34,623 bases of DNA from Ignavibacteria bacterium (GTDB taxonomy: Bacteria; Bacteroidota; Ignavibacteria; Tepidaquicellales; Tepidaquicellaceae): NCBI GenBank assembly GCA_016873795.1, contig VGWA01000013.1:1-34623 (forward strand). Direction: 5' to 3'. Position 1 is the stretch's first letter. Each line of letters begins with the position of its first letter. The notes beneath the pieces were generated by a model that searched no databases, was not told the DNA's origin, and was given only the letters and a program-made list of their open reading frames with translations. Shown piece after piece: positions 7,089 through 34,623 of this stretch. Both the position numbers and the translations under genes were made by a program.

Positions 7089-7100
7089 ACTAAAGTCAGG
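7089..7100 (-). repeat. CCTGACTTTAGT element, exact copy abutting a start codon
   Basis: Exact match to the 12-base element on the minus strand, ending one base before the ATG of the DUF192 gene. It would lie in the ribosome-binding region of that mRNA. It contains no Shine-Dalgarno sequence. Confidence 0.8.
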
Positions 7101-7184: not shown

Positions 7185-7225
7185 ACTAAAGTCGGGTTTA
7201 AGTTTAATTCTTTACTAAAGTCAGG
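7185..7225 (-). repeat. Two CCTGACTTTAGT elements in direct orientation
   Basis: One copy with a single mismatch (CCCGACTTTAGT on the minus strand, 7185-7196) lies just beyond the stop of the aminotransferase gene. One exact copy (7214-7225) lies inside the gene and encodes its last residues, LTLV. Both are flanked by TTA on the plus strand, so the shared unit is a little longer than 12 bases. Confidence 0.8.
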
Positions 7226-8298
7226 TCTCTCAAGTATTGTTTAATTAATTTCATCAAGTAGGCATTTTGTTCCCGTGTACCAATTGTAATTCTCGCTTCT
7301 GTTCGAAATGCTTCTTCATCAAGAAATTTAATAAGCATATTTCTTTCTTTCAAATATTTATTCAATCCTTTTCTAATATCTTTGGGTATATCAACCAGAA
7401 TAAAGTTAGCATAAGATTTATAGGGTTTAAAACCTTCAAGTTTGTTAAACTCAGAATAAAACATTTTCTTATCTTCCTGCATTTGTCCTGTAACTTTTTC
7501 ATAATACTCAGTATCGTTCAGAGCAATCTCTGCTAATTTTTCCGACAGTCTATTATATCCGAGATACCGAACAGTATATTTCAACAGTTCTTCCAAATTA
7601 GCTCCTGCAAAGGCAAAACCAATTCGACATCCGGCAAGGGCATAATATTTTGAAAAAGTACGACAAATTAAAAGATTAGGAAACTCATCAATATAGGGTT
7701 TTACATAATCGTTTTCAGTCGAACCAAATCCCCAGTATGCCTCGTCAATCATCACGAGAGCTCCTCTGCAGGCATCCAAAAAGTGTTTTAAATCTTCTTT
7801 GGGTATTCTATTACCGGTAGGATTATTGGGTGACGCTATCAGTACAATTCGAGGACGCTCCCTCTCGTAAATTTCAATCATTTTCTCCACATTATACATA
7901 TAAGAACATAGTCCGTTTTTTTTCACTATTTCCATCGGGTATTCAACATTAAATCCTCCGACTTCATATGCAACCTTTTTATAATACCACCAAGCTTCTT
8001 TAGGAATCAGTATTTTTTCTTTTCGTTCAAGATAATAGTGAATCACTTGTTTAAGTAAATCCTCGCTACCGTAGGATAAAATAATTTGCCTTTCCGGAAT
8101 ATTAAAATCCTTTGAAAGCCTCTCGGAAAGCACAGACTTTACACCACGTGAAAAATCTCTGGAATACCAGGCAAGCTCATCAAGTGTAACATTCTTTAAA
8201 AAATCATAACATTTAGGAGAAGGTCCATACTGAGACTCATTTCTGTCCAGATATTGTAATTCTTTATATTTTAACCTGACTTTAGTTTCGTTTGGCAT
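7204..8298 (-). CDS. HisC-like PLP-dependent aminotransferase (class I/II)
   Basis: A 364-residue fold-type I aminotransferase, closest in appearance to histidinol-phosphate aminotransferases. The N-terminal LDRNESQYGPSP matches the L-x-x-NE-x-P-x-G-P-S-P pattern. Other landmarks are ASPNNPTGN (residues 155-163), IDEAYW (184-189) and the PLP lysine K217 in RTFSKYYALAGCRIG with R225. No other histidine gene is nearby, so the amino donor and acceptor are undecided. The first residues (NETKVRLKYK) and the last (LTLVKN) are encoded by copies of the 12-base element in opposite orientations and look added to a normal enzyme core. A further copy sits 5 bases upstream of the ATG. Confidence 0.9.
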   Translation of the reverse strand: MPNETKVRLKYKELQYLDRNESQYGPSPKCYDFLKNVTLDELAWYSRDFSRGVKSVLSERLSKDFNIPERQIILSYGSEDLLKQVIHYYLERKEKILIPKEAWWYYKKVAYEVGGFNVEYPMEIVKKNGLCSYMYNVEKMIEIYERERPRIVLIASPNNPTGNRIPKEDLKHFLDACRGALVMIDEAYWGFGSTENDYVKPYIDEFPNLLICRTFSKYYALAGCRIGFAFAGANLEELLKYTVRYLGYNRLSEKLAEIALNDTEYYEKVTGQMQEDKKMFYSEFNKLEGFKPYKSYANFILVDIPKDIRKGLNKYLKERNMLIKFLDEEAFRTEARITIGTREQNAYLMKLIKQYLRDLTLVKN

Positions 8299-8315
8299 AT
8301 AAACCTGACTTTAGT
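8275..8315 (+). repeat. Two exact CCTGACTTTAGT elements flanking a start codon
   Basis: Exact copies at 8275-8286 and 8304-8315, 17 bases apart and in direct orientation. The first lies inside the aminotransferase gene and encodes TKVR near its N terminus. The second lies 5 bases upstream of its ATG, so the start codon is bracketed by the element. Confidence 0.82.
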
Positions 8316-8435: not shown

Positions 8436-8521
8436 TAACTAAAGTCAGGTTCAACAATTCAGGATTTAAGATTACCTGACTTTAGTTAGGTATCATTACT
8501 AAAGGCAGGCCCGACTTTAGT
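8436..8521. repeat. Inverted CCTGACTTTAGT copies forming hairpins
   Basis: Two exact copies in opposite orientation form a perfect 15-base-pair stem: TAACTAAAGTCAGGT at 8436-8450 pairs with 8474-8488, leaving a 23-base loop. Next to it are two imperfect copies, 8498-8509 and 8510-8521, directly abutting in inverted orientation and able to form a weaker stem through ACTAAAG and CTTTAGT. The region lies between the ABC ATPase and aminotransferase genes, 15 bases or more after the ATPase stop. It could act as a transcription terminator or attenuator, though no T-run follows the strong stem. Confidence 0.8.
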
Positions 8522-8550: not shown

Positions 8551-9447
8551 TCATGACTTTAGTGACGCATGAAAATTTATTGAATATTCTTTATTATCTT
8601 CTAAAATTGTAGAGTTAACGTTAAAATATTTTTGCAAATTCGATTCTGTAATTATATCCCGGGTAATGCCGTGGGCTACTACAAAACCTTTACTGAGCAG
8701 AATACTTTTCTCCGTAAATTTCATTGCTAAACTCAAATCGTGCGTTACAATTAAAATAGTAAGTTTTTTTTGAACATTCAGAGTCTTTAATAAAGAAAAC
8801 ATTTCAAATTGATGATTAATATCCAGGTAGGTCAAGGGTTCATCAATAATCAATAATTTTTCACTTAAATCAGACATAGCGTTTAGTTGAACTAAAGAGA
8901 GTGTTATATATACCTTTTGCTTTTCGCCCCCCGAGAGCTCATGAAAGTAACGACTTTTAAAATTCACAATATCAATCTGATTCATACAAAATTCGACAAT
9001 TTTTTTATCATTTTCGTTTATTAAAAAATCAATATTTTTCTTATACGGATATCTTCCCAAGAGTAGAAAATCAAACACCGTTATCCCACCCATTCCGGAA
9101 AATTCAGGAAAGAAAGATTGAGGTAAAAAACTCAATATTTTCGATATTTCTTTACCGTTATATAATTTTAAATTTTTACCTTTAAAAAATATATTACCCT
9201 GATAACCTTGTAACAAACCCGATATTAACTTAACCAAAGTTGACTTTCCGGAACCGTTCCTTCCTATTAACGAAAGAAAATCGCCTTTTTCTATTGATAA
9301 ATTGACTCCAAAAACTCCTTTAGTACTATCACGGTGATGGTCTTCCGGAGCTTGTTTTAACTTCTCTAAATTATTTTTTTTCAACAAAGAAATAATATCA
9401 GAATCATAAGAAAAATTTAAACCGCTGATTTCTAATAATTTACTCAA
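8551..9447 (-). CDS. ABC transporter ATP-binding protein, FecE/BtuD type, orphan
   Basis: A 298-residue ABC ATPase. Walker A is GRNGSGKST (62-70), the Q-loop glutamine is Q110 in FLPQSFF, the signature is LSGGEKQ (171-177), Walker B with catalytic glutamate is LLIIDEP (198-204), and the switch histidine is in VTHDLSL near 236. The layout fits ATPases of iron-siderophore or cobalamin importers, but no permease or binding protein is within the window. An unusual charged insertion of roughly 25 residues (SLLKKNNLEKLKQAPEDHH) sits between the first strand and the sensor strand before Walker A. The C terminus, ending SLKS, is encoded by a variant of the 12-base element whose last bases supply the TGA stop. 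Confidence 0.88.
   Translation of the reverse strand: MSKLLEISGLNFSYDSDIISLLKKNNLEKLKQAPEDHHRDSTKGVFGVNLSIEKGDFLSLIGRNGSGKSTLVKLISGLLQGYQGNIFFKGKNLKLYNGKEISKILSFLPQSFFPEFSGMGGITVFDFLLLGRYPYKKNIDFLINENDKKIVEFCMNQIDIVNFKSRYFHELSGGEKQKVYITLSLVQLNAMSDLSEKLLIIDEPLTYLDINHQFEMFSLLKTLNVQKKLTILIVTHDLSLAMKFTEKSILLSKGFVVAHGITRDIITESNLQKYFNVNSTILEDNKEYSINFHASLKS
8552..8563 (+). repeat. CCTGACTTTAGT element, one mismatch, overlapping a stop codon
   Basis: CATGACTTTAGT. On the minus strand this encodes the end of the ABC ATPase (SLKS) and its TGA stop overlaps the copy. Confidence 0.7.
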
Positions 9448-10007: not shown

Positions 10008-10907
10008 TTGCAATCACAAAGTAAATTCTTTTTTAATAATAAACTTACATTACACAAAAAAATTAGTAAGATACGGCTAAGTACACTTTTACTACCACTT
10101 ATATTATTAATTTTTATAAACAAGTTTTATTATAAAGAATCATATTCACAAACCAAAAATGCTTCCACATACAACTTCCAGTCCTTAGCAATAACAGGGC
10201 AAAAACCAACTGTTAAATTTTACTTTAATACAAAAACTAACAAATCAAACCTGACTTTATTAAAGCGTATCCTTCCTGACTTTAATTTTGACGGCAATCC
10301 GTATCCCGAGAGCTTATATTACAAAGATTGTAATCAACCGATAAGAACATCTGACTTTAGTACTGACTTTAGTAATGATTTTTTGAAACAGGTCCAGAAT
10401 AAAATTGATACCTCGGAAGTAAAACCTGTTATTAAATCTGACACAGCAATTTTCACTATGCGAAAAAATCCGTGGAAAGCCGTTGCTTTGTCAGCTATTA
10501 TTCCGGGATTAGGTCAATTCTACAATCAATCTTACTGGAAAATTCCTATAATTGCCGGTCTTGGCGGTTATTTTGGTTATGAAATAATATCAAATAACAA
10601 CAAATTTAACGATTACAAGGATAGGTATGCTGATTCACAAACGACAACAAATCCCGACGGTGATCCTGTATTAAGAAACTACAGAGAATTCTACAGAGAC
10701 CAAAGGGATCAGTTTATTTTATATTTTATATTTCTTTATGTTATAAATATTGTTGATGCCTATGTAGATGCACATTTGTTTGATTTCTCGGTCTCGGATT
10801 CTTATTTACATACGTCACAGAAATCAGGCAGGGATATGATCATATCAAAGCAAACCGGTACTCCAATAAAGAGAGGAAGCATATTAAACATAAAAATTAA
10901 TTTCTGA
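10008..10907 (+). CDS. DUF5683 family membrane protein
   Basis: A 299-residue protein. The start is TTG at 10008, immediately after an in-frame TAG; no ATG occurs before residue 150, and a hydrophobic signal or anchor (STLLLPLILLIFINKF, about 28-43) needs an upstream start. The C-terminal half carries the DUF5683 region: KNPWKAVALSAIIPGLGQFYN, the WKIPIIAGLGGYFGYEI helix, then REFYRDQRDQ and a final helix before DAYVDAHLFDF. Its role is unknown; the family is found across Bacteroidetes and relatives, often near chromosome-partition or cell-wall genes. The linker between anchor and domain is peppered with four degenerate copies of the 12-base element, giving the repetitive SDFSTDFSNDF. Confidence 0.85.
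   Translation: MQSQSKFFFNNKLTLHKKISKIRLSTLLLPLILLIFINKFYYKESYSQTKNASTYNFQSLAITGQKPTVKFYFNTKTNKSNLTLLKRILPDFNFDGNPYPESLYYKDCNQPIRTSDFSTDFSNDFLKQVQNKIDTSEVKPVIKSDTAIFTMRKNPWKAVALSAIIPGLGQFYNQSYWKIPIIAGLGGYFGYEIISNNNKFNDYKDRYADSQTTTNPDGDPVLRNYREFYRDQRDQFILYFIFLYVINIVDAYVDAHLFDFSVSDSYLHTSQKSGRDMIISKQTGTPIKRGSILNIKINF
10250..10286 (+). repeat. Two one-mismatch CCTGACTTTAGT elements inside a gene
   Basis: CCTGACTTTATT (10250-10261) and CCTGACTTTAAT (10275-10286), 13 bases apart in direct orientation. They encode LTLL and PDFN of the DUF5683 protein, in two different reading phases. Confidence 0.65.
10350..10373 (+). repeat. Tandem CCTGACTTTAGT elements inside a gene
   Basis: TCTGACTTTAGT directly followed by ACTGACTTTAGT, two head-to-tail 12-base units with one mismatch each, then a decayed third unit (AATGATTTT). 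They encode the repetitive SDFSTDFSNDF of the DUF5683 protein. The exact 12-base period is the clearest evidence for the unit length. Confidence 0.8.
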
Positions 10908-11011: not shown

Positions 11012-11023
11012 ACTAAAGTCAGA
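11012..11023 (-). repeat. CCTGACTTTAGT element, one mismatch, next to a start codon
   Basis: ACTAAAGTCAGA on the plus strand, ending 4 bases before the ATG of the T9SS protein gene. Again the copy occupies the place of a ribosome-binding site. Confidence 0.7.
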
Positions 11024-12084: not shown

Positions 12085-12104
12085 GGAACGTTCCTGACTT
12101 TAGT
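12085..12104. repeat. Palindrome and exact CCTGACTTTAGT element between convergent genes
   Basis: A perfect 10-base palindrome GGAACGTTCC (12085-12094) overlaps an exact CCTGACTTTAGT copy (12093-12104). Upstream there is a short tandem ATGAGTT repeat at about 12057-12071. The whole lies between the convergent T9SS and M15 genes, where a two-way terminator would be expected, but no T-run is present. Confidence 0.65.
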
Positions 12105-17688: not shown

Positions 17689-17700
17689 CTTGACTTTAGT
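17689..17700 (+). repeat. CCTGACTTTAGT element, one mismatch
   Basis: CTTGACTTTAGT, located 6 bases beyond the stop codon of the S9 peptidase gene, in the gap before the SPOR pair. Confidence 0.65.
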
Positions 17701-32503: not shown

Positions 32504-33289
32504 CTAATTATAAGTGTATTTTGCGGCATTCTGGATTCTCTTTTCAATCGAGGGGTGAGAGTGAAAAAGGAATTCCACTATTTTATTGGGGGTTTTATAG
32601 GAAAGGTTTTGTTTAGATAGTTTTTCCAGAACTGATATATAAATATCTGCTTTTTTTATTACAGAAAGAGAAAATTTATCGGCTTCCCGTTCATATCTTC
32701 TTGAAAGTATGTTTGAAATAGGTAAAGTCAACAATCCATACCCGGACAAAAGTAAAGCAAGCACGGGCAATGCGGAAATCTGCTGAATATTTACATAACC
32801 CGAAATTGACACAAAATATTGATACAAAACAGAAACAGCATATAAACCCGAAAATGTAAGAACAAATGATAACGCTATTAATTTTAAAATATGTTTTTTC
32901 TTGTAATGTCCAGGTTCATGTGCAAAAACCGATAAAATTTCATCCTCTGTAAAATTATCCAGCAAAGTATCTGATATAATAATCCTTTTGGCTTTTCCAA
33001 GTCCTGTAAAGGCAGCATTTGCCTTTTTTGTATTCTTACTGAAATTAAATGAATAAATCCCCTTTATACTTATATTATTATTCAGACATAAATCGGATAT
33101 TTGTATTTTCAGAGACTCGTTATCAAGCGGTTCAAATTTATAAAAGAGCGGAAATATTAATAATGGTGCAAGTCTGCCAAGCAATAAAGAAAACAAAAAA
33201 ATAAATAATCCAAAAATAAACCACCAGTACTCCCCAAACTGACTTATAGTAAAATAAAACCCAATTAAAATCGGAGTTCCAATAATCAT
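32504..33289 (-). CDS. Ste24/M48 endopeptidase, C-terminal part of a split gene
   Basis: The first ATG after an in-frame TAG gives a 261-residue fragment containing the catalytic domain of a CAAX-type (Ste24) metallopeptidase. The zinc motif is HEPGH (124-128) and the third ligand is E200 in SRRYEREADKFSLS; several membrane helices surround it. Ste24 enzymes are membrane proteases for protein quality control. Family members normally begin about 110 residues earlier, and that missing part is encoded in the same frame immediately upstream (33332-33625). The proline in HEPGH is unusual, since Leu, Ile, Phe or Ala is common there. The fragment may be inactive, translated by reinitiation, or joined by readthrough. 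Confidence 0.88.
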   Translation of the reverse strand: MIIGTPILIGFYFTISQFGEYWWFIFGLFIFLFSLLLGRLAPLLIFPLFYKFEPLDNESLKIQISDLCLNNNISIKGIYSFNFSKNTKKANAAFTGLGKAKRIIISDTLLDNFTEDEILSVFAHEPGHYKKKHILKLIALSFVLTFSGLYAVSVLYQYFVSISGYVNIQQISALPVLALLLSGYGLLTLPISNILSRRYEREADKFSLSVIKKADIYISVLEKLSKQNLSYKTPNKIVEFLFHSHPSIEKRIQNAAKYTYN

Positions 33290-33331
33290 AGCAATGAATG
33301 ACGACTTAAGTTTCTCCTTGATATATAACTT

Positions 33332-33625
33332 CTATGCCTGGTTTGATAATTTATATTTATGCTTGACTTTAGTTTCGAGAATAAATTCTGAATAGATATT
33401 GACAGGTGTGTTTACGGTACTAAAAATCAAAAACGTTATGAAGCAAAAAATCAGAAAAGCCGGATAAGAAACAGATGCAATCGTATATGAAAACTTTTCC
33501 AATCCCCTGAAAAAATCCAATAAAATAAGTAATATGAGCAAAAGAAAAATAAAAACGAACTTAAAAAAGTAAATACTAGTTTTTATTTTTGCATATTTTT
33601 TAGCCCTTTTTTGTATTTCGCTCAT
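33332..33625 (-). CDS. Ste24/M48 endopeptidase, N-terminal part, ended by in-frame TAG
   Basis: A 97-residue product with two membrane helices (about 16-37 and 48-70) and the Ste24 N-terminal segment NIYSEFILE...HKYKLSNQA, which corresponds to the family pattern FxxE-x-x-(F/Y)-x-x-x-N/S-x-Q-T. It stops at TAG (33334-33332). Reading on in the same frame gives KLYIKEKLKSSFIAM, the expected continuation (family WLKDELKS), with no frameshift. So this and 32504-33289 are one gene. Four residues, TKVK, interrupt the conserved stretch and are encoded by a copy of the 12-base element. It begins 10 bases after the YIP1 gene stop. Confidence 0.85.
   Translation of the reverse strand: MSEIQKRAKKYAKIKTSIYFFKFVFIFLLLILLILLDFFRGLEKFSYTIASVSYPAFLIFCFITFLIFSTVNTPVNIYSEFILETKVKHKYKLSNQA
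33362..33373 (+). repeat. CCTGACTTTAGT element, one mismatch, inside a conserved gene
   Basis: CTTGACTTTAGT, read on the minus strand as ACTAAAGTCAAG, encodes TKVK inside the Ste24 N-terminal domain. The flanking TTCG is shared with the copy at 8275. Confidence 0.75.
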
Positions 33626-33635
33626 AAAATACCAA

Positions 33636-34448
33636 TCAAAAAACCAAACTTACAGAACTCGAAATCAACACGTAAAGAACCCAGAGTCCGAAGACAACAG
33701 GAAATGTAGCTGAATATTTCACGTTGCCAATTTTCGATAGTCCGACTGAAACAACTGCAAAGTACCAAATAGTAATAAAGTCAAGTTTTAGAAAAAGCGT
33801 GTTTAAGAATTCACCAACTGTTTCCTTTTTAAAGACAGCCGCCAGTCCGACACTGGATATCTCTCCAAGAAGAATTGATAAAAAGGTTGCTAAAAGACTC
33901 CCGATTGCAGATATTAACATAGCAAGACCAAGAACATTAAGGATATTAACATATAAAAACTCTCCCTTAAATATCCTTAAAGCCAGCATATACAAAAGGC
34001 TCAATAGAAAAAATACAGCAATCTGAACAAAAATCGGAACAACCAGCATAGTAATAATCATAATAGGATTATTCGGATCCATAAACTTTTGAGTTTGTTC
34101 CAGTGTAATATCCGCTTGTTCTCTTGTCATTTTACCGCTTTTGACATCTTTTTCAAATCTCTCTTCAATCTTTTTTAACTGTTCGTCCATTACCTTATCC
34201 ATCAGTTCGCTGTCGGAACGAAAGATTAATGTTGCTATTATTCCAATAACGATTGAAATAATAAAAGGTAAAACCCAATATGATTTTCGAGGAGTTTTGG
34301 AAATTGTATAAAAAGTATTTCCGGGTTCCGTAAAAACTCCGACCATTGCTTCTGCTGTTGTAAGAGGCTGTGGTTTTTCTTCCGGATCAAAGTCGGGTTG
34401 TAATGATTGGTTCTGATTCAGGATTTGTTCTTCACTAACGTCAGGCAT
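33636..34448 (-). CDS. YIP1 family membrane protein
   Basis: A 270-residue protein with a polar N-terminal 45 residues (rich in Gln, Pro and Glu), then five hydrophobic helices at about 57-75, 127-150, 165-190, 205-235 and 245-268 and a helical charged loop at 78-115 (KVMDEQLKKIEERFEKDVKSG). The start of the domain, MVGVFTEPGNTFYTI, is the characteristic beginning of the bacterial YIP1 family. The family is thought to bend or organise membranes, but the bacterial role is undefined. It begins 6 bases after the nadD stop and ends 10 bases before the Ste24 gene, so all three are one transcript. Confidence 0.87.
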   Translation of the reverse strand: MPDVSEEQILNQNQSLQPDFDPEEKPQPLTTAEAMVGVFTEPGNTFYTISKTPRKSYWVLPFIISIVIGIIATLIFRSDSELMDKVMDEQLKKIEERFEKDVKSGKMTREQADITLEQTQKFMDPNNPIMIITMLVVPIFVQIAVFFLLSLLYMLALRIFKGEFLYVNILNVLGLAMLISAIGSLLATFLSILLGEISSVGLAAVFKKETVGEFLNTLFLKLDFITIWYFAVVSVGLSKIGNVKYSATFPVVFGLWVLYVLISSSVSLVF

Positions 34449-34454
34449 AATATT

Positions 34455-34623
34455 TTATTTATATAAATTGTTACTAAAAATATATTTTTTAACTTTTGGT
34501 ACAACAAGGAAGTCTATTGATTTATTAATTTTTACATAATTTCTAATCATAGATGAGGAAATACCGAGAATTGGGGTATTCAGCATAATTATCTTTTTAA
34601 TATATTTTCTGCTGACTTTGGAA
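34455..34623 (-). CDS. nadD: NadD, nicotinate-nucleotide adenylyltransferase, C-terminal end only
   Basis: Only the last 56 codons lie in the window; the gene enters from the right edge. The visible sequence contains the C-terminal NadD pattern: NTPILGISSSMIR (family ISSTxIR), then a KSIDFLVVPKVKKYI stretch and the final NNLYK before TAA. ISSxxIR binds the nucleotide phosphate and the SI-(D/R)-(F/Y)-LVP segment is typical. NadD makes NaAD in NAD synthesis. It is the first known gene of the nadD-YIP1-Ste24 run. The match is clear despite the small size. Confidence 0.85.
   Translation of the reverse strand, partial: SKVSRKYIKKIIMLNTPILGISSSMIRNYVKINKSIDFLVVPKVKKYIFSNNLYK

Follow-up and report, generated by a model that had tools for sequence, protein, structure and literature searches.

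Why does the N-terminal motif of a Ste24-like peptidase carry four residues, TKVK, between two parts that directly adjoin in its relatives? This question is raised by a gene in the window, which is the whole stretch of 34,623 nucleotides that was analysed, and which belongs to an Ignavibacteria bacterium represented by a metagenome bin of 2.70 Mb in 273 contigs (97.6% complete, 4.2% contaminated). A sequence-only reading of this DNA had taken the 12 bases behind TKVK for a one-mismatch copy of a short element inserted in frame, and had proposed that the element spreads in the form of a 12-base module. In the present study, this proposal was followed up by alignment, by counting in the bin and in related genomes, and by comparison of empty and filled sites. 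The TKVK codons very probably represent a copy of a mobile, dispersed DNA unit of only 12 bp, which has a 13-bp sister; this confidence applies to the mobile 12-bp unit alone and not to the agent that moves it.

The insertion in the Ste24-like gene

The locus has the following features.

32504..33625, minus strand: Ste24-like M48 peptidase gene, its frame split by an in-frame TAG (Pfam PF16491 and PF01435)
33332..33334, minus strand: the in-frame TAG stop of this gene (sequence reading)
33362..33373, minus strand: element copy ACTAAAGTCAAG, encoding TKVK in frame; an exact sub-variant, without counterpart in 26 of 26 orthologues
33377..33378, minus strand: TC half-site of the target, TCGAA^ on the minus strand (sequence reading; sites genome-wide favour C at -4 with T at -5)

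Protein families were assigned by Pfam, in which PF16491 is the N-terminal and PF01435 the C-terminal part of the Ste24-type M48 peptidase. The four residues lie in the ORF 33332-33625 (minus strand) in the context ...FILE-TKVK-HKYKLSNQ..., and this ORF ends ...SEFILETKVKHKYKLSNQA*. The alignment included 26 orthologues from relatives (11 of the same family and 15 of the same order), and in every one LE or ME is followed directly by HKY, HKF, HTY or HRF; TKVK between LE and HKY was present only in the window copy, and there was no other gap at this place. Since all 26 orthologues are without TKVK and have nothing between these residues, exactly 12 bp were inserted. The supposed mismatch turned out to be a real sub-variant, the AAG form, of which the fetched DNA contains 21 exact matches. 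A single in-frame TAG, 27 bases beyond the insert, parts the gene into two halves, and an internal stop is absent from the full-length orthologues among those listed. The gene is therefore probably decaying here, as a probable pseudogene, or else the stop is a sequence error. Because of this stop codon, LigA and RNase R, described below, are stronger evidence than Ste24 that intact proteins tolerate the insert.

Two related units and their copies

The 12-bp unit, v1, is ACTAAAGTCAGG (general form ACTAAAGTCARG). It has 100 exact copies in the bin compared with 0 for the reversed control, and when one mismatch was allowed the genome-wide counts were 210 and 14, respectively. De novo counting of 12-mers also gave v1 as the most over-represented word (100 vs 0.11 expected in 850 kb). 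In the window, ACTAAAGTCAAG had 26 matches with at most two mismatches where 4.45 were expected, and none of 100 shuffles reached 26. The 13-bp sister, v2, is ACTGAAAGTCAGG (general form ACTGAAAGTCARG), with 39 exact matches in the genome and no more than 2 in 28 family members; its commonest version, A-CTGA-AAG-TCAG-G, is a minimal inverted repeat, and v2 minus one G is v1. Both units exist in AGG and AAG forms, and ACTAAAAGTCAGG is a rarer variant with 6 copies. In 442 other genomes of the phylum v1 reached at most 3 copies each; these include 58 relatives, of which 57 had none or one copy and the remaining one had three.

Besides the TKVK copy, the window contains the copies listed here, including the abutting pair with a 12-base period to which the earlier reading had pointed, and which is real. 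Evidence is the window sequence unless given.

7089..7100, plus strand: ACTAAAGTCAGG copy, intergenic
7185..7196, plus strand: copy with one mismatch, intergenic
7214..7225, plus strand: ACTAAAGTCAGG copy, part of the added C-terminus DLTLVKN of a HisC-like aminotransferase (ORF translation)
8275..8286, minus strand: ACTAAAGTCAGG copy encoding TKVR after MPNE at the aminotransferase N-terminus, which without the insert has the length of the G004 orthologue
8304..8315, minus strand: ACTAAAGTCAGG copy upstream of the aminotransferase gene
8438..8449, plus strand: ACTAAAGTCAGG copy, intergenic
8475..8486, minus strand: ACTAAAGTCAGG copy, intergenic, facing the copy at 8438..8449
8498..8521, no strand assigned: two abutting inverted copies, one mismatch each
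8552..8563, minus strand: copy with one mismatch, C-terminus of an ABC-ATPase ORF (SLKS*)
10250..10261, minus strand: copy with one mismatch in the DUF5683 ORF 10008-10907 (window sequence, Pfam)
10275..10286, minus strand: copy with one mismatch in the same DUF5683 ORF
10350..10373, minus strand: two abutting 12-base copies, one mismatch each, encoding SDFSTDFS
11012..11023, plus strand: copy with one mismatch, intergenic
12093..12104, minus strand: ACTAAAGTCAGG copy, intergenic
17689..17700, minus strand: ACTAAAGTCAAG copy, intergenic

The right end of the window (34341-34623) overlaps positions 1-283 of contig C60; the two differ at 4 of the 283 positions, which is strain variation, and C60 likely continues the window on the right.

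Insertions in proteins and the reading frame

In LigA, four extra residues were found at each of two separate element copies compared with 6/6 orthologues, and RNase R has four extra residues at its copy compared with six. The same was seen in a ferredoxin/Fe-hydrogenase-like protein (C28_4639, two orthologues) and in a radical-SAM protein (C2_6674, one orthologue). The aminotransferase, called HisC-like from our own reading, carries the element at both termini (its orthologue is 79% identical). One-mismatch matches in RmuC-like (C47 10352) and GlgB-like (C68 2598) genes we take to be chance. In-frame copies were also noticed in two phage-like genes. One is portal-like (C150 2668), with relatives in two IMG/VR contigs whose match begins only after the insertion point; the other, by our reading capsid/protease-like (C191 617), also has a degenerate run of 12-bp repeats, ELKSGLKTGLEAGLKSG, and a search for phage relatives of this gene found none.

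ORFs of at least 100 aa make up 88% of the DNA, and they hold 25 of 121 v1 and 1 of 41 v2 copies (Fisher p=0.0055). The coding copies occupy all four stop-free frames and neither of the two stop-containing frames. Because 12 is divisible by three and stops are missing from four of the six frames, each unit adds four residues to a protein; units of 12 bp are retained in frame within genes, whereas the frame-shifting 13-bp units hardly are.

Empty sites, filled sites and target preference

Empty/filled pairs with nearly identical flanks differ by the unit alone; examples are C38 18460 vs C93 3049 (58/59 flank bases the same) and C32 2877 vs C32 3062-3121 (59/60). The site CCCACGACTA^AAGTCGTGGG is filled with ACTAAAGTCAAG at C58 1326, C58 8120 and C32 2877. 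Of the tails in one family of sorting-domain paralogues, three lack the unit (KFKMLNSGFAEI or close to it), three contain a single insert (KFK-LKSG-...) and one contains two; C188 is such a tail with a second, inverted insert (LKSG-M-PDFS), and the pattern on C140 is alike. For v2, empty sites show an insertion of 13 bp (C165 340 and C9 28551 vs C3 and C142). In the empty/filled pairs the target bases were neither duplicated nor lost, the placement being ambiguous by one A in some of them. These pairs and the four-residue inserts in unrelated genes, together with the 26 Ste24 orthologues, therefore support the spread of the element as a 12-base module. The proposal stands with three amendments: there is a 13-bp sister, intergenic copies are the majority, and a stop codon lies in the Ste24 gene itself.

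At distinct v1 sites, C was found at -4 in 72/105, T at -5 in 56/105 and A at -1 in 74/105; at distinct v2 sites, G at +4 in 31/38, A at +5 in 25/38 and A at -1 in 29/38. C at -4 or G at +4 was present at 89 of 105 v1 and 34 of 38 v2 sites, compared with 25% expected. Units thus insert some three bases away from a TC or GA half-site (TCNNN^NNNGA), of which one half is sufficient, and they do so in either orientation; neither half-site was present at 16 of 105 v1 sites, so that half-site use is a preference and not a rule. By sequence reading, TCNNN precedes every insertion validated by orthologues, namely those in Ste24, LigA (both), RNase R, the ferredoxin and the radical-SAM protein.

New units often adjoin an older copy: 21 of 162 copies abut another, compared with 0.2% at random positions, and neighbours within 150 bp were direct in 49 cases and inverted in 15, some of these 64 neighbours stemming from longer tandem repeats. 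The unit finishes with TCAGG and v2 starts with ACTGA; therefore, each junction can itself be a target, which fits the abutting copies.

Some copies may have multiplied through duplication of longer repeats (37-bp units, 81-bp tandem units, paralogous genes) and not by fresh insertion. Repeats at C2 60567-60953 (about 81 bp, tandem), C28 15620-15701, C32 2833-3121 and C58 1299-1339 surround a palindrome, CCCACGACTTTAGTCGTGGG, which contains ACTAAAGTC and in which the 12-mer landed repeatedly. A 37-bp repeat, ACTGAAAGTCCTA-ACTAAAGTCAGG-AAGGCAGGCAGG, at C32 186-283 and C60 9000-10483 apparently consists of nested 12/13-bp units.

How the unit may move

Several points count against a mobile unit. 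Besides the loose use of the half-site and the possible multiplication through longer repeats, a 12-bp unit is much shorter than the ends that known transposases recognise, and the carrier is one genome, a metagenome bin of 273 contigs. Because only this genome carries the unit, a new insertion is without confirmation from an independent strain. The search for moving machinery covered three families, RVT_1 reverse transcriptase (PF00078), Y1_Tnp transposase (PF01797) and Ku, and gave no family match for any of them in the bin, which is 97.6% complete.

Units enter whole at TCNNN^ or ^NNNGA half-sites, in either orientation and often beside an older copy. Their own ends appear to carry the target half-site, TCAGG at one end and, in v2, ACTGA at the other. 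Because unit ends and targets would share this half-site, the most likely agent, put forward tentatively, is a trans-acting cut-and-paste enzyme with TCNNN specificity, that is, a strand-cleaving and rejoining recombinase or nuclease that would cut at TCNNN both in targets and in unit ends. The more specific claim, that a bacterium has an active enzyme which writes or pastes one constant 12-base sequence into its chromosome wherever TCNNN offers a site, is rather doubtful.

Ranked next is templated synthesis, which is less likely but a real contender. Here a broken or stalled 3' end, TCNNA, would pair briefly with a copy or an RNA, gain one unit and rejoin, and the TCAGG of the new unit would prime the next round, as telomerase does, by means of a polymerase or an RNA-templated enzyme. 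Filled sites do read TCnnA followed by ACTAAAGTCAGG, C at -1 almost never occurs (1/143), neighbours mostly have the same orientation, and the TCAGG end of the unit would account for tandem arrays with a 12-bp period. However, the base at -1 is mostly A whereas the unit's own end is G, the half-site of v2 is on the opposite side, which a single template does not explain, and the missing PF00078 match in the bin, at 97.6% completeness, counts against telomerase-like repeat addition.

The unit could also be an excision scar, left when a longer transposon with ends ACTGA.../...TCAGG inserts bluntly and departs, leaving 12 or 13 bp of its two ends. The inverted repeat of v2, CTGA-AAG-TCAG, would suit such an origin and the two lengths could be two excision outcomes, but the DNA read showed no long element that ends in this way, the insertion sequence repeated at contig ends terminates differently (CACATCTGTCCAAAATAA / CACTGCTGTCCAAAATAA), and neither tandem arrays nor the excess of direct neighbours would be expected; hence, we consider a scar improbable.

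Distribution of the copies in the genome

The density of exact v1 copies is 37 per Mb, many contigs have about 2-8 units per kb of non-coding DNA, and C1, C5, C6, C7 and C12 had none in the parts read. The 20 smallest contigs read as N and were set aside. At C12 1-1170 there is an array, tandem and of about 110 bp, that contains the hairpins CAGACTACAAAAGTCTG and has a core resembling the element family (ACT..AAAGTC). Intergenic copies are spread over tandem, divergent and convergent spacers in proportion to the length of these; therefore, nothing points to a role in termination or regulation, and a terminator or other positional function was rejected.

The multi-copy insertion sequence, which breaks the assembly, was located as follows.

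Ends of C8, C10, C47, C60, C63, C93, C124, C165, C188, C15 and C120: insertion sequence with ends CACATCTGTCCAAAATAA and CACTGCTGTCCAAAATAA

Comparison of C93 and C63 suggests that one site is polymorphic for it. Identical insertion sequences occur on contigs rich in the unit and on contigs free of it (C60, C63, C93, C124, C165; C15, C120), and the G+C content of rich and free contigs is similar, 0.349 and 0.344. The uneven distribution is therefore read as regional clustering within one genome.

An artefact of sequencing, assembly or binning (an adapter or linker, or two organisms in the bin) is very unlikely. The source is a metagenome bin with copies concentrated on some contigs, and a mixed bin keeps a small likelihood because other small repeats are also commoner on the rich contigs, which a 4-mer classifier can tell from the free ones, though weakly (AUC 0.65). 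On the other side, the bin is 97.6% complete and 4.2% contaminated, rich and free contigs share the insertion sequences, and the copies are depleted in ORFs (22/100 vs 88% of the DNA), respect the frame, with the frame-shifting 13-mer nearly absent from ORFs, have a target preference and include diverged examples. The least credible origin is a functional signal of the DNA-uptake type (like the 12-base DUS of Neisseria), gained by selection or biased transformation: many copies of a fixed 12-mer in both orientations would suit it, but the low density, the lack of terminator bias and the large contigs C1, C5, C6 and C7 without exact copy in the parts read speak against it, and orthologues and empty sites, which show a 12-bp insertion and not substitution, refute it for the tested copies, later recruitment of a function being possible.

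Outside this genome, clustered copies were found in no viral contigs, direct pairs in no genome contigs, and similar DNA in no plasmid records. An inverted-pair match in JAUHYU010000001.1 is a lone 27-bp hairpin with two copies in 5.1 Mb and was judged a coincidence.

Comparison with known systems and meaning

The mobile unit of 12/13 bp is, on the best reading, close in behaviour to the cyanobacterial 'very small mobile repeated elements', yet shorter. MITEs are likewise non-coding mobile repeats, and they usually duplicate their target; the unit here leaves no target site duplication, and its empty sites differ from filled ones by the unit alone. MITEs are also described as 70-300 bp long with terminal repeats of 15-30 bp, which a unit of 12-13 bp does not have. 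Rickettsia palindromic elements (RPEs) are palindromes roughly ten times longer than the 12-bp unit. In PMC3733652, which cites Ogata et al. 2002, RPEs are placed in frame within genes of likely functional proteins, a likeness to the ORF copies seen here, where only 12 bp and four residues are added. REP/REPIN are also short dispersed repeats with an inverted-repeat core, mostly extragenic, and according to PMC3116915 REPs are about 20-60 bp and depend on the RAYT (Y1) transposase; the bin has no PF01797 match, and a hairpin doublet is not needed here.

The nearest likeness is to the small dispersed repeats (SDR), called very small mobile repeated elements by Elhai et al. 2008 (as cited in PMC4390886, PMC3116915 and PMC2884548). 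They are described as about 20 bp in length and possibly mobile (PMC2884548), and SDR5 as inserting precisely within HIP1 (PMC4390886). Both are non-coding repeats, very short and dispersed, that are considered mobile, and for the present unit there are many copies (100 v1 and 39 v2 exact) as well as sites that occur both empty and filled. In contrast, SDR are about 20 bp and cyanobacterial, whereas the unit here has 12-13 bp, a TCNNN^NNNGA-like target and belongs to another phylum, the comparison being by description only. The literature searched, with most subscription papers outside it, gave no mobile DNA smaller than 12-13 bp, which is weak evidence.

A mobile 12-bp unit would bring the minimum length of mobile DNA down to 12 bp. 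It would also offer a simple system, with insertions that can be counted, in which to study the spread of very small repeats, a question that has stood since the cyanobacterial SDRs. It would also be a natural source of short in-frame insertions, including in normally essential proteins such as DNA ligase. If an enzyme that writes the sequence does exist and works from a template, for example an RNA, bacteria would possess a telomerase-like writer of interspersed DNA, and no smaller mobile DNA would be known.
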